Assembly (NCBI GenBank): GCA_020049855.1
Contig: JAGVLJ010000061.1
Location: forward strand, 1 to 46,258
DNA length: 46,258 nt
Source: Bacteroidia bacterium
Lineage (GTDB): Bacteria; Bacteroidota; Bacteroidia; UKL13-3
Direction of reading: 5' to 3'
Below the pieces are notes generated by a model that was given only the letters and a program-made list of their open reading frames with translations, had not been told where the DNA came from and made no database searches. This document shows, one piece after another, positions 40,679 through 46,227 of the stretch (position 1 is its first letter; each line of letters begins with the position of its first letter). The position numbers and the translations under genes are program-made.

Positions 40679-43600
40679 CTATCCTTTAATTATCAGTTTC
40701 CTTTTTTGCACCAATATTCCATCCTTAAATATAACTAACATGTATACACCTGGGGTTAATTGCGATATTTCACAGGATATAGTATTCAACCCTTCCTGCT
40801 TTATTGTATGCAACTCAATAATTCTTCCTGTTATATCTACAGCTTTAATATCAAATTTTCCCTGACTTTCTTTCGTTATAAAATCACTCGAAATATTAAC
40901 TATTTGCTTTGCCGGATTTGGATAAATTCGGTATTCTTTATTTTCTATTATCCTTTGGTTGGAATTAGGTTCTTCTCTTTTCCCATAAAACACTTCACTA
41001 TTCACATCCGTTTCGGTAATCGCACCGCATGAATAAGAAATAGAGGTACTGCGCTCAGACCCTATGGTGCCTACAAGTGTTACACCGAAATATAAACTAT
41101 ACATACCTGATGGAATAGAGTAAGTGGGACTGTACCCGTAAAAATACCAGTAATTAGAAGTGAGATGAAGGGCGTGGTAACTGCTATTGGTTACATTACC
41201 TCCAATACTGTATGATGCCGGACTTGAAGAATAGTTAGGATAAAGGAACGTATTGTTTCCGTCTAAGGTTAATAAATCAAATGCGTCACTAAGACCAATA
41301 TCATAATCGGCAACGTTAGTAAACCGATTGTTACCACCTGCCACGGTTGAAGTACCCGCTGCATTTGAGCCGTTGGTACCTGTACTCAGGTTCAGGGTTA
41401 CTCCATCATTTGCAAGTACAGAGGCGTTGTTATCTTCAAATTCGCTACAAGAAATGGTTGCTTGCAGCGCACCAAATACCTCTACAGCCGACCCATTCTC
41501 AGAAAATAACGACTGCTCTATTAGCAGGTGTGCATTGTTGCCTCCACTATAGTAAATACCTTTTTGTGATGAGCCTAAAATACGACCTTTAAACTGACTT
41601 AGCCCTTCCATTTCGGTGGCATACCAAGCATAATCGCAATTGGTAAACTGGTTATTGTTCAGATAAGCACGGTAGCCTTCGGTAACAATGGCTTTTTCAC
41701 AATCGGTAAATTTACACCCACGTATCTCTAATAATGTTACATCTGCTGACGATAGTTTATTTAAGGCAATTTTCGCCTTACCGAATTCACAAAATTTAAC
41801 GGTAAGACTGCTTCCATTTTGCCCATCAAAAGTTATTCCCTTATATTTATCTGAAGTAGCCCATGGCAATGGGGCAAACTTCACACTTTCTAAATGAGTG
41901 GAAGATGAAGTTTTTATCTCTGCATCGGCCCCCATTTCTACCAATCCATTTTTTAGTTCCACCTGATTAAAGCCTGATGCATTAATTCCTCCTCCTATCA
42001 CACGCAACACCAGATCGGTTTTGCTACTTCCCTCTAATTGTAAAGAGCAACTGCCTGTTTTACTAATGGAGGCATACCCGCTGCTTTGCGAAATAATTGT
42101 GATAAAACCACTGCCCGAAAAAGTAAGATCATAATTATCTAACTCCAGGTAACCGCCCATCTCCAAGTTAGAGCCATCATCCTGCAATAAAATAGTTCCT
42201 CCGTTTAACTCAAGAGTAGCCCCGTGCTTAATGGTGAGCTTAGAGTTTTTATAAATTTTTAAACTCGAGCCGGGATTCAATATTAAACGGGAACCCGAAT
42301 TAATGGTAAGCCCTGCGTGGTGGTCGGTGCCGGCATCGCCAAGTTGCAACTCGCCATTTACAGTAATGGTAACAGGGTCAGATGTGCAGTTGTTGTCGTG
42401 TACAAAGGTTTCTACAAAAAAGGTAGAGCCCTCAGGAGGTTCGCTATTATTGAAATTATCATCGGTATATCCGGCTTTTACATTTTTATTTATGGCCAGT
42501 GTGCCGTTTACAGTTACATCGCCAATCCAATCGCTTACTGGTGCACCATAGTTGTAGGTTTTACCGCTGGGTATGGTGGCCGGGGCGGTGTTAAGCATTT
42601 CGTTTTCGAAAATTTTAACAGTGTATGGAGTGAAATAGGCATGGGCTCCATTTCTTTCTGATGGAATGGGTGGTTCGTAATCATAAGTTATGAAGCGTTT
42701 CGCCTTAACTTCATTGTTACCAGGAGTAGTATTAACAATCAAATTGTAATCAATTACATTGCTATTTACTGCGCATGAACTAATGGTAGGGATAAAACAT
42801 ATATTAGGAAAATGAGTTTGAATCCCTCCTTTTTTAACAACCGTAGGTAAAGAATTTCGTAATGCGCTTATCATATTTCCTCCCGCTATTGCGGCAGGAG
42901 GGCCTGCACTTCCCGGTTTGCAATCTAAACCATTCCACATAGTTGCCGGAGCTATAGATTGGCTATAATATGGATAGATAATTGTTCCAGCCAACTTATT
43001 TACAATTGCCCCTTCAAATACTTTTTTGTGAGGTGAAGTATCCACTGGCTGGACCCAGATATTAAAGACTAATCCGGGAATTACCTTTCCATCGGTACTC
43101 ACATAAGCGGCATCATATGACAAAATCAAATCAGAAGGTGCCATGTAAGTGATGCCGCCTGATGTACCTGTTTTTTTCCCTTGTTGCACTCCGCTACCGG
43201 AACCATCACATATGGCAACAAACTTACATCCTAAATTATCAACACCTGCCATTATATCTAATGAATCGTACAATTCCTGATGCAATGACGAAGGTTTGAT
43301 GTAATTAATAACCATTTGCTCTACTGATTTGGCTATTAATGTTTGGTAATCCCAATACACATCAGAGGTTTCAACCACAGGCACATTCTGGTTATACACA
43401 AAGTAATATTTGTGCATAGCCTTTATAAATGCCTGAATACCCAGAGAGGCATTGGCTCCGCGGTGGGGCGAATCGTGGGTAATGAGCAAACGGGTATCGT
43501 GGTCGGCCGAGTCGTGGTCAAGGTGCTGCTTGTGCATATCACCCAATGCATATCGCGAAATGATACCCCCAAGGCTGTTGCCAAACACCACATTTTGCGT

Positions 43601-44284
43601 ATGCGAGCCATTTGCCTCTTTTTCATGGTTTACCCATTTAATAATATCCTCAAATACCAGTGCATTGCGCTGTATATAATCGGTGGGATCATAAAAATCA
43701 ATAAAAATAAGGTCGTACTCTTGCTTCAGAACTTCTGGGACAATTGTATTTGAATTAAAAACATCTTGCTTGCCAACCTTACTCCAAAAATTATCCCCAA
43801 TAATTGGCCCGTAAAATTTAGACGCACCGGTCAGGCTTATGGGGGTATGAAACCCGCCCGCCACTATAAACGGCCTGCGTATTTTATGATCGGGGTTGCA
43901 CTTGGCATAATTAATAGAAATATAGGCCTTGCCCGGAGCACCTTGATAATTGCCTGACGACTGTACCAGCAACCATTCATCACAAAAATGCCAATTCCCT
44001 TCAGCATCTTTAAAAGCACCGTTCGGGTGTCGCTCTATAATAAAAGAAGAACTTAATGTAGTAAGGTCGCTCAGGTAAACCTTGCACTTTACCTCGTACA
44101 TACCAGCTGTATCATATTCCACCAACACGGCTTCGTCAAACTGCACCGTCTTCCAGCCTTGCCCGTCTCCAAAATCCACTTTTATCGAATCTACCCCCCT
44201 TTCATCGTTGCTCACATACAGGTGTTGCGGAAAAATAAACTGCACCAGGGTATCTCGTGTGCCCAGCACACCGGCAGCAGCCAC
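40679..44284 (-). CDS. Secreted alpha/beta-hydrolase-like, beta-helix protein with T9SS domain (3' part of a frameshifted gene)
   Basis: A 1201-codon frame whose GTG at 44284 is only the first possible start, not a natural one. It reads: a PKD-like domain (VDFGDGQGW, about 30-82); a hydrolase-like domain with nucleophile elbow G235-N-S237-L-G-G240 and DSPHRGA; a linker with a beta-rich region; a parallel beta-helix (about 640-1080, with repeated GCKFTDCEKAI-type rungs); and a type A T9SS sorting domain (YRIYPNPAKQ, about 1120-1201). The upstream 194-codon frame at 44212-44796 supplies the missing N-terminus. Removing one copy of the 5-base tandem duplication at 44319-44328 joins both into a protein of about 1370 residues. 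The substrate, possibly lipid or peptide esters, is unknown. Confidence 0.78.
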   Translation of the reverse strand: MAAAGVLGTRDTLVQFIFPQHLYVSNDERGVDSIKVDFGDGQGWKTVQFDEAVLVEYDTAGMYEVKCKVYLSDLTTLSSSFIIERHPNGAFKDAEGNWHFCDEWLLVQSSGNYQGAPGKAYISINYAKCNPDHKIRRPFIVAGGFHTPISLTGASKFYGPIIGDNFWSKVGKQDVFNSNTIVPEVLKQEYDLIFIDFYDPTDYIQRNALVFEDIIKWVNHEKEANGSHTQNVVFGNSLGGIISRYALGDMHKQHLDHDSADHDTRLLITHDSPHRGANASLGIQAFIKAMHKYYFVYNQNVPVVETSDVYWDYQTLIAKSVEQMVINYIKPSSLHQELYDSLDIMAGVDNLGCKFVAICDGSGSGVQQGKKTGTSGGITYMAPSDLILSYDAAYVSTDGKVIPGLVFNIWVQPVDTSPHKKVFEGAIVNKLAGTIIYPYYSQSIAPATMWNGLDCKPGSAGPPAAIAGGNMISALRNSLPTVVKKGGIQTHFPNICFIPTISSCAVNSNVIDYNLIVNTTPGNNEVKAKRFITYDYEPPIPSERNGAHAYFTPYTVKIFENEMLNTAPATIPSGKTYNYGAPVSDWIGDVTVNGTLAINKNVKAGYTDDNFNNSEPPEGSTFFVETFVHDNNCTSDPVTITVNGELQLGDAGTDHHAGLTINSGSRLILNPGSSLKIYKNSKLTIKHGATLELNGGTILLQDDGSNLEMGGYLELDNYDLTFSGSGFITIISQSSGYASISKTGSCSLQLEGSSKTDLVLRVIGGGINASGFNQVELKNGLVEMGADAEIKTSSSTHLESVKFAPLPWATSDKYKGITFDGQNGSSLTVKFCEFGKAKIALNKLSSADVTLLEIRGCKFTDCEKAIVTEGYRAYLNNNQFTNCDYAWYATEMEGLSQFKGRILGSSQKGIYYSGGNNAHLLIEQSLFSENGSAVEVFGALQATISCSEFEDNNASVLANDGVTLNLSTGTNGSNAAGTSTVAGGNNRFTNVADYDIGLSDAFDLLTLDGNNTFLYPNYSSSPASYSIGGNVTNSSYHALHLTSNYWYFYGYSPTYSIPSGMYSLYFGVTLVGTIGSERSTSISYSCGAITETDVNSEVFYGKREEPNSNQRIIENKEYRIYPNPAKQIVNISSDFITKESQGKFDIKAVDITGRIIELHTIKQEGLNTISCEISQLTPGVYMLVIFKDGILVQKRKLIIKG

Positions 44285-44796
44285 AAAGCAGGTATGGTTT
44301 TCATATGGGCTTTCGGTGCGCCCCGCCCGTCCACATCATATATTTCAATGCCATCCATACGCAGTAGGCTATCGGCAAAGGCACTATCTTTAATGCAACT
44401 GTAGCGGTAGTTGAGTATGGCTATGGGCACCTGCCCACTGTCCAAATAGGTTTGCATGGTATCCACCAGGTGTTGCAGGGTAAGCGTATCATGTGCAAGG
44501 GCCGTATCCACATGGGCACGGGTAAGGGTGCCAAAAGCTTTGCGCCACAAAAAAAGGTTTACCTGGTTGCTGTCATTCTCCACCCCGTTAAACTGGAATA
44601 CATTGGTAGTGGGCATGGCTTTTTCTATTAAAATGCCTGTAGGCACCTGCCCCAAATCTACATGCTTAAAACATGAGTCTATGATGGTTTCAAATGAAAC
44701 CTCCAGAGTAGAGTCGGTAAAAAGGGAATCACTTTGAGCATGAGTTGCAGTTGTGCATAATATCAAGAGGATAGTAGCAAGAAGACTTTGTTTCAT
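44212..44796 (-). CDS. N-terminal part of the frameshifted secreted hydrolase
   Basis: A 194-codon frame with a signal peptide (1-20, ending ATHAQ) and a predicted N-terminal domain containing DLGQVPTGILIEKAMPTTNV and, later, DSGQVPIAILNYRYS, apparently an internal duplication of one motif. After R158 (DVDGR) the frame shifts: the remaining residues of this frame are not natural sequence. In the other frame the text continues TESPYENHTCF and then the 1201-codon frame. It follows the lipoprotein at 44833-45366 by 36 bases. A truncated paralogue lies at 45429-45686. Confidence 0.75.
   Translation of the reverse strand: MKQSLLATILLILCTTATHAQSDSLFTDSTLEVSFETIIDSCFKHVDLGQVPTGILIEKAMPTTNVFQFNGVENDSNQVNLFLWRKAFGTLTRAHVDTALAHDTLTLQHLVDTMQTYLDSGQVPIAILNYRYSCIKDSAFADSLLRMDGIEIYDVDGRGAPKAHMKTIPALWLLPVCWAHEIPWCSLFFRNTCM
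44319..44328. repeat. 5-base tandem duplication causing the frameshift
   Basis: CGCCC CGCCC on the plus strand (GGGCG GGGCG in the coding strand). Taking out one copy turns GAC-GGG-CGG-GGC into GAC-GGG-CGC-ACC-GAA and restores one continuous frame. Confidence 0.85.
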
Positions 44797-44832
44797 ATTT
44801 TAAGATTTTGATGAATTTTTGTAAAAAAAAAA

Positions 44833-45366
44833 CTAAGGCATTAACAAATCAAAACGACCAGATTCTACTTTTACAAATGAGGTTCCTTTATCATTAAAAA
44901 GTAGGAAATTAAATGTTCCAGATACAAAACCATTTACTGTATCTAGCCTTGAAATATTAAGGTCTAAATAATTACCTTTATTTAGTGAAGCATCTGAAAA
45001 ATAACCAGTTTCATTATACCTAACAGCCGCAAAACTCTTATTGTAATCTTTAAAACTCAATAAAAAAGAACCCGGTTTATTAACTTCAATTGTGCGAAAA
45101 TGCACCCATATTTTGTCAAGACTAAGTTCATTTTCCCTTATGTAGTACCCAACATCTAACATTCCATTTTGGTAACTCACCTGCACATAATGATACCCCT
45201 TTTCATAAATAGGCCAAGCCTTGCCATTTACCAGGCACCCAAACGTACCTAACCCGCTGGCGGTAGCCGGGGGTAGTTTGTCAATTTCTTCTTCATCGCG
45301 TTTGCATTGGGTAAAAAGCAGGCAGGTAGTAAAAAATAAAAGAAGGATATGCAGGGGTGTTTTCAT
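44833..45366 (-). CDS. Small lipoprotein paired with the secreted hydrolase (copy B)
   Basis: A 177-residue protein with a signal peptide and lipobox LFTQC (C21). The mature N-terminus, EEIDKLPPATASGLGTFGCL and NGKAWPIYEKG, is nearly identical to copy A at 45700-46227; the rest (about 65-177) has diverged but keeps the same plan, ending ESGRFDLLMP. The KLPPATxSGxxTFGCLVNG motif recurs in Bacteroidota lipoproteins of unknown role. It sits 36 bases upstream of the secreted hydrolase and probably shares its transcript. Confidence 0.78.
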   Translation of the reverse strand: MKTPLHILLLFFTTCLLFTQCKRDEEEIDKLPPATASGLGTFGCLVNGKAWPIYEKGYHYVQVSYQNGMLDVGYYIRENELSLDKIWVHFRTIEVNKPGSFLLSFKDYNKSFAAVRYNETGYFSDASLNKGNYLDLNISRLDTVNGFVSGTFNFLLFNDKGTSFVKVESGRFDLLMP

Positions 45367-45384
45367 GGGGTAAATTGATTATAA

Positions 45385-45392
45385 CAAAAATA
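45385..45392 (-). promoter_or_regulatory. Putative -7 box (TATTTTTG) for lipoprotein B
   Basis: Minus-strand match to TAnnTTTG, 18 bases upstream of the ATG at 45366. Confidence 0.45.
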
Positions 45393-45428
45393 AAGGGATA
45401 TTGCGCATAAAAGCAAGTTGTAGTTTGA

Positions 45429-45686
45429 TTAAAAATTAGAGGAGAAACCCTGGTTGCTGTCATTCTCCACTCCGTCAAACTGAAATACATTGGTGGTGGG
45501 CATGGCTTTTTCTATTAAAATGCCTGTGGGCACCTGCCCTAAATCCACATGCTTAAGACATGAATCCATCATTTCCTCAAAGGAGTATTCAAGGGTTGAA
45601 TCGGTGAACAATGAATCTTCTTGTGCCTTGCTCGTTTTTGGTAGGCAAATGCACAATAAAGAAAACAGTAAAATTAGTCTTTTCAT
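45429..45686 (-). pseudogene. Truncated paralogue of the secreted hydrolase N-terminus
   Basis: An 85-codon frame with a signal peptide ending SKAQ. It then repeats the first domain of the 44212-44796 protein, including DLGQVPTGILIEKAMPTTNV and GVENDSNQ, almost unchanged. After NSDQ-equivalent residues SNQ it ends in six unrelated residues (GFSSNF). The remaining 1,300 residues seen in the other copy are gone. It therefore looks like the stub of a second module whose 3' end was deleted. It follows lipoprotein A by 13 bases. Confidence 0.8.
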
Positions 45687-45699
45687 AAGGGTATTTTAA

Positions 45700-46227
45700 T
45701 TAATAATTCACATCAAAACGTCCTGATTCAATTTTAATATATGAGGCTCCTCCTTTATCAAATAAGGAGTAGCTAAACTTTCCCGCTATAAAGTTTGAAA
45801 TGCTATCGAACCTTGAAATATCCAAGATTGCAAAACCATTGGAGTTAATAATATCTCTTGAGAAATAAGATACTTCTTTTTGCCTAGCGGATAAATTCCC
45901 GTGATTTTTATCATTAAACAACAAAGTATAGTAACCCTGTTTATTAATCTTCGATGTTATAATCCTTATCCATTCCTTATCTAAGCCACTTATATCGTCT
46001 CTTATATAATAATATATATCTAACTCTCCGTTACTATAGCTTACGTGCAGATTATGGATACCCTTCTCATAAATAGGCCATGCTTTCCCATTAATAAGGC
46101 ACCCAAACGTACCTAGGCCACTGGCAGTGGCTGGGGGCAGCTTGTCTATTTCCTCTTCTTTTTTGCAGCCTGCATATAAGAGGGAAATGCAACAAAACAG
46201 AACAAAAACTTTATGCGGTTTATTCAT
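45700..46227 (-). CDS. Small lipoprotein of the truncated module (copy A)
   Basis: A 175-residue protein with a signal peptide and lipobox LYAGC (C20). Its mature N-terminus EEIDKLPPATASGLGTFGCL is the same as in copy B, and NGKAWPIYEKG follows. The C-terminal two-thirds differ (for example GLDKEWIRIITSKINKQGYY versus SLDKIWVHFRTIEVNKPGSF) but align in length and end alike, ESGRFDVNY. Function is unknown. The gene keeps an intact frame although its partner gene is reduced to a stub. Confidence 0.78.
   Translation of the reverse strand: MNKPHKVFVLFCCISLLYAGCKKEEEIDKLPPATASGLGTFGCLINGKAWPIYEKGIHNLHVSYSNGELDIYYYIRDDISGLDKEWIRIITSKINKQGYYTLLFNDKNHGNLSARQKEVSYFSRDIINSNGFAILDISRFDSISNFIAGKFSYSLFDKGGASYIKIESGRFDVNY

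Follow-up and report, generated by a model that had tools for sequence, protein, structure and literature searches.

A five-base tandem duplication that probably caused a recent loss of function in a family of T9SS-exported alpha/beta hydrolases

Two groups of described systems lie close to the locus presented here, namely the pentanucleotide contingency loci and the effector-immunity arrays. In the former, at least five pentanucleotide repeats are found in 83% of the meningococcal opa genes, and the variability is 0.007 per month at five repeats or fewer against 0.16 at nine or more, a rate that is more than 20-fold lower (PMC7157529). In the T6SS arrays of Vibrio cholerae, effectors are replaced and immunity genes are kept (PMC5361080). 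Concerning lipoproteins, Tli3 is described as an outer-membrane lipoprotein in the available part of its report (PMC9860674), and the available part of the report on Riean_0653 names no partner hydrolase (PMC7881567).

The window, meaning the whole stretch of 46,258 nucleotides that was analysed, carries a gene that is split into two ORFs by a second copy of GGGCG (Table 1). The reading favoured here, which is regarded as probable, is a recent loss-of-function duplication; the gene belongs to a family of T9SS-exported alpha/beta hydrolases that occurs in many copies and recombines. An earlier note on this DNA had described the tandem duplication and the two halves in different frames, and both the doublet GGGCGGGGCG and the two ORFs are indeed found where it placed them. 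When one copy is removed, the reading continues over 1370 aa by way of DVDGR-TESPYENHTCF and without an internal stop, and the rest of the frame is intact, as no other stop falls within the 1200 codons of ORF2. Family homology stops at about residue 158 of ORF1 and begins in the frame of ORF2 at 44323. The sequence GGGCGGGGCG occurs a single time in the window, where shuffles expect 0.05; bare 5-base doublets are not rare, with 69 start positions in the window and 7 inside the split gene, so that the doublet owes its meaning to the comparison with homologues. A run of ten T at 44823-44832, in the non-coding gap that separates the lipoprotein gene from the hydrolase gene, is more slippage-prone than the GGGCG doublet.

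Table 1. Features of the split hydrolase gene and its surroundings, in window coordinates
Feature	Position	Strand	Basis or remark
GGGCG x2, frameshifting +5 tandem duplication	44319..44328	-	window count and homologue alignment
ORF1, 194 aa: signal peptide and N-terminal domain	44212..44796	-	signal peptide by inspection
ORF2, 1201 aa, with an alpha/beta hydrolase, a region of beta-rich repeats and a T9SS tail	40679..44284	-	
GNSLGG, GxSxGG nucleophile-elbow motif	43565..43582	-	in 15/15 aligned homologues
T9SS type A C-terminal sorting domain (PF18962 / TIGR04183)	40685..40927	-	HMM
Mosaic block 1, 5' part	44400..44796	-	about 70-80% DNA identity to C73 and C26 types
Mosaic block 2, holds the duplication	43530..44400	-	about 90-99% identical to G002:C73
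Mosaic block 3	42640..43530	-	about 88% identical to G002:C26, far from C73
Mosaic block 4	40679..42640	-	about 86-97% identical to G002:C73 and C35
Intact lipoprotein gene, 177 aa, directly upstream of ORF1	44833..45366	-	NCBIfam NF052634, 120.5 bits (cut-off 57)
TATTTTTG, fitting the -7 promoter consensus of Bacteroidota (TAnnTTTG), upstream of the 177-aa lipoprotein gene	45385..45392	-	consensus match only
85-aa 5' fragment of a second hydrolase copy	45429..45686	-	75% identical over residues 2-78
Second lipoprotein gene, also intact, 175 aa; close to the contig end and upstream of the 85-aa fragment	45700..46227	-	NF052634, 110 bits (cut-off 57)

The closest homologue, with 82% protein identity, belongs to a sister species (G002:C73, locus L046). 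Its site reads GATGTGGAC-GGGCG-CAGCGAAAGCCC and that of the window GATGTGGAC-GGGCGGGGCG-CACCGAAAGCCC, an exact gain of five bases inside a surrounding stretch that is free of gaps. The event is therefore a +5 tandem duplication, arisen either in the window's lineage or in its assembly, and set against one-copy homologues it is supported as the cause of the break. Alignment of the homologues, which the earlier note had proposed as a check, established that they form a single protein, with about 19 comparable family sites all in frame and devoid of a second GGGCG. The paralogues of the same genome on C83 and C56 cross the site in a single frame (DIPGRTQSPYE and DVSGRSESPFE), the motif GR(T/S)(E/Q)SP(Y/F)E spanning the break site in both, and the comparable sites of the two sister species (G001 and G002) are single-frame as well. 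These two species hold 14 full-length homologues that are intact as single ORFs of 1326-1398 aa, and one that is broken (G002:C38); a scan of the genome contigs yielded a single locus, which was the G002 gene itself. Variation of the repeat number at the site was seen in none of the comparable homologues. As a separate observation, splits in three genomes (window 44320; L063:3893; L190:3290) fall within residues 131-157 of about 1370, and the three share the frame direction (-1/+2), a pattern based on small numbers and noticed post hoc.

The single-frame homologues also bear on the idea that the two ORFs yield two functional products, as separate genes or as one gene read by programmed -1 frameshifting. 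G002:C38 and G013:C29 are split nearby (at about residue 131 and about residue 141, respectively) and in the same direction, -1/+2, which speaks for this idea. Nevertheless, it is very improbable, given that the full-length homologues are single ORFs (n = 14), that the conserved motif GR(T/S)(E/Q)SPYE crosses the break, and that ORF2 is without a signal peptide and opens with GTG start codons that lack a clear ribosome-binding site. Programmed frameshifting in particular was rejected on inspection, which found no slippery heptamer where the homology changes frame.

As to the nature of the product, ORF2 gives a weak match to hydrolases of the PGAP1/DUF676 type, and its sorting domain scores E 1.7e-12 with PF18962 and 30.2 bits with TIGR04183 (cut-off 23). 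The T9SS machinery of the window's genome includes SprA, in a frame of 2401 aa (E 7e-166). The label of surface protein given in the earlier note is plausible on these sequence features, that is, a signal peptide seen by inspection, a T9SS tail detected by HMM and SprA in the genome. Searches with the Tle families produced one match, PF11678, at E 0.031 and 14.3 bits (below the cut-off of 23), and this match lies in ORF1, outside the hydrolase. PDB sequence searches with the hydrolase and with the lipoprotein gave nothing useful, PADLOC returned no match, and no phage match was found. The confidence of the structure predictions, with pLDDT of 47.9 for the lipoprotein (3 sequences) and 28.8 for the hydrolase (2 sequences), was too low for a fold search.

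Judged by its similarity to L046 and L047, the split gene combines two paralogue types in a mosaic, whose similarity switches lie near 44400, 43530 and 42640. In comparison with G002, residues 1-133 are diverged from both the C73 and C26 types, residues 133-420 track C73 with dS of about 0.15, residues 420-720 track C26 (dS about 0.6 and dN 0.026, versus dN of 0.3-0.5 to C73), and the remainder after residue 720 tracks C73/C35. A duplication placed exactly on a recombination junction was rejected, as it lies inside block 2 and about 75 bases from the nearest switch (about 44400). Part of the mosaic could also come from misassembly of paralogues.

This last point leads to the explanation that the duplication is an assembly or consensus error, in which case the real genome would have one copy and the 1370-residue gene would be intact. 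The mosaic structure with a switch 75 bases from the duplication agrees with such an error, as do the membership of the locus in a family that has many copies and contig breaks, and the otherwise perfect state of ORF2 across 1200 codons. The frequency of frame breaks elsewhere was assessed in sampled stretches, 791 kb of the window's genome and 1.58 Mb of G002. Comparison of G002 with the window's genome gave 6 frame changes in 248 orthologue-like matches (91,315 codons), four of which were different queries matching the split gene, one lay in the C67 family relict and one elsewhere; the reverse comparison gave 3 frame changes in 208 matches, and one of these was again the split gene. With a count so low, frame errors are no general feature of the MAG, and a generic assembly error is made unlikely by the 248 matches; the earlier note had listed an assembly error among its explanations. 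Furthermore, a two-copy repeat of 10 bases is readily spanned by reads, and a broken copy is unsurprising where four further family copies in the assembly bear lesions too. Overall, an assembly error, which would then be a local one, is considered an unlikely source of the second GGGCG; the population may also be mixed at the site.

Of those four further copies, all from the window's genome, none is whole: C83 has one frameshift, C56 has two, C61 has a stop and a frameshift, and C67 is a relict. Their lesions, which consist of 1-base shifts, a stop and deletions, are unrelated to repeats and differ from that of the window, which is decay. The break in the window is recent, in agreement with the earlier note, in view of the absence of a further stop in 1200 codons and of any surplus of amino-acid replacements along the branch of the window. 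For residues 760-1370, the branch-specific changes are 21N:32S for the window and 27N:54S for C73 (p = 0.47), and the lack of a difference between the branches means that the break is too recent for relaxed selection to show, a result that fits a recent loss and fits equally an assembly error or a switch. Family copies are present at several contig ends of the window's MAG (C1, C4, C7, C22 and C74). On G000:C52, the C-terminal 787 aa of another copy are read without interruption as far as the contig edge. Since the contigs of the MAG often end within the family, the counts of copies and of intact copies are lower bounds, and an intact hydrolase copy may exist in the window's genome.

According to the favoured reading of a recent loss of function, a 5-base tandem duplication of the slippage type would recently have inactivated one member of the family. 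Translation from the real start would give a truncated product of 194 aa, endowed with a signal peptide and devoid of the hydrolase and sorting domains; the remainder of 1201 codons would have neither a signal peptide nor a good start, so that this gene would export nothing functional. The lipoprotein gene upstream stays intact, and the lesion would form part of a wider decay of the family in the window's species. We infer that the whole population carries the duplication and that it does not revert. The locus resembles frameshift pseudogenes in multi-copy bacterial surface-protein families, in that a short tandem duplication shifts the frame, sister species keep intact relatives and the remaining copies in the window's genome bear different lesions. 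Unlike them, the window keeps the adjacent lipoprotein gene intact, and the broken gene is pieced together from two types of paralogue.

The earlier note had instead proposed phase variation, in which slippage between one and two copies would reversibly toggle export of the protein. The tandem arrangement is suited to this, as simple slippage could delete the duplicate again, and the remainder of the frame is preserved. The locus also shares with the pentanucleotide contingency loci, such as Neisseria opa (PMC7157529), a five-base coding unit early in the gene whose copy number sets the frame. However, known pentanucleotide switches have many copies, usually at least five in opa, whereas the window has only two, and copy-number variation at the site is seen in no homologue. 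For phase-variable simple-sequence repeats in general, a multi-unit tract is expected (usually at least five units for pentanucleotides), together with a repeat number that varies between related alleles; the tract found here has two units, and the related alleles are constant. The other copies in the genome, moreover, are broken by lesions that do not involve repeats. Reversion by simple slippage is possible and would be rare. A reversible on/off switch is therefore highly doubtful and the idea should not go forward, the frameshift itself being probably ordinary.

The genes next to the lesion are of a different interest. Matches to NF052634 number 14 in G000, 24 in G001 and 48 in G002, and most other relatives have few or none. 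In the genus, each of the 14 hydrolase genes of full length is directly preceded by a lipoprotein ORF of the same strand, which ends within about 40 bases of the hydrolase start or overlaps it, and the pairing recurs in G010, G013, G023 and G025; near the more distant homologues of eight further genomes, no lipoprotein was detected with the model used. A shorter relative from G025 (L192:1264-3912) has its signal peptide directly before the hydrolase domain and is still preceded by a lipoprotein, an architecture that makes the N-terminal domain dispensable for the pairing. Additional lipoprotein genes take turns with fragments of the hydrolase 5' part that are 69-253 aa long, and arrays with such effector-like remnants occur in the window (44833-46227) and in L047, L048, L053, L059, L060 and L203; L193 (G001:C76) has ten consecutive lipoprotein ORFs. 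The variable middle of the lipoprotein gives a Mantel r of 0.75 with hydrolase residues 560-730 and of 0.21 with the sorting domain, values taken from 15 pairs and confounded by linkage and shared ancestry.

One tentative interpretation of the family as a whole is an unrecognised polymorphic system delivered by the T9SS, in which lipase-like effectors would be paired with cognate NF052634 lipoproteins as immunity proteins; the window would then be a case of weapon lost, immunity kept. A co-secreted partner or a chaperone would also fit the covariation of lipoprotein and hydrolase. In the window the hydrolase is lost and both lipoproteins are still open, but the hydrolase is about eight times longer than the lipoprotein, so that its more frequent breakage is by itself no evidence of selection. 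The arrays would grow by recombination inside the hydrolase gene, which would insert a new module (promoter, lipoprotein and hydrolase 5' part) before the conserved 3' half, and after each insertion the previous lipoprotein gene and a shortened hydrolase 5' fragment would be left upstream. This family, with up to 48 lipoprotein matches per genome, giant T9SS hydrolases and immunity-like arrays, is more interesting than the lesion it surrounds.

Several known systems can be compared with it. Riean_0653 of Riemerella is the namesake of NF052634 and belongs to the same NCBIfam lipoprotein family; according to the available text, it differs in having come from a transposon screen for haemolysis, and the recombinant protein was not haemolytic (PMC7881567). 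TANFOR polymorphic toxins of Bacteroidetes, as presented in the available part of PMC7073777, are likewise large proteins, for which a role as polymorphic toxins has been proposed, and T9SS-secreted proteins are enriched in their vicinity; unlike the window family, in which no TANFOR match was seen, they have an N-terminal TANFOR domain, a C-terminal DNase domain and a downstream immunity gene. The EsaG immunity strings (PMC9484751) are similar as tandem, non-identical small genes held in strings by recombination, and different as part of a Firmicutes T7SS with proteins unrelated to the window family. In the phospholipase effector-immunity pair Tle3/Tli3, again from the available text (PMC9860674), a serine hydrolase adjoins a lipoprotein partner as it does here; Tle/Tli pairs, however, are delivered by the T6SS and not by way of a T9SS tail, and the window family has no significant Tle match. 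The V. cholerae T6SS effector-immunity displacement arrays (PMC5361080) share with this family an effector-like gene beside a small partner gene, mosaicism, and diverse partner genes in arrays with remnants of displaced effector-like genes. They differ in that the family described here has its partner gene upstream, 5' fragments as remnants, a constant part at the 3' side (the T9SS tail) and a toxicity that is putative. If the effector-immunity pairing is true, the T9SS would gain a lipase-based antagonism system, whose arrays would be the mirror image of the immunity arrays of the V. cholerae T6SS and of Rhs.
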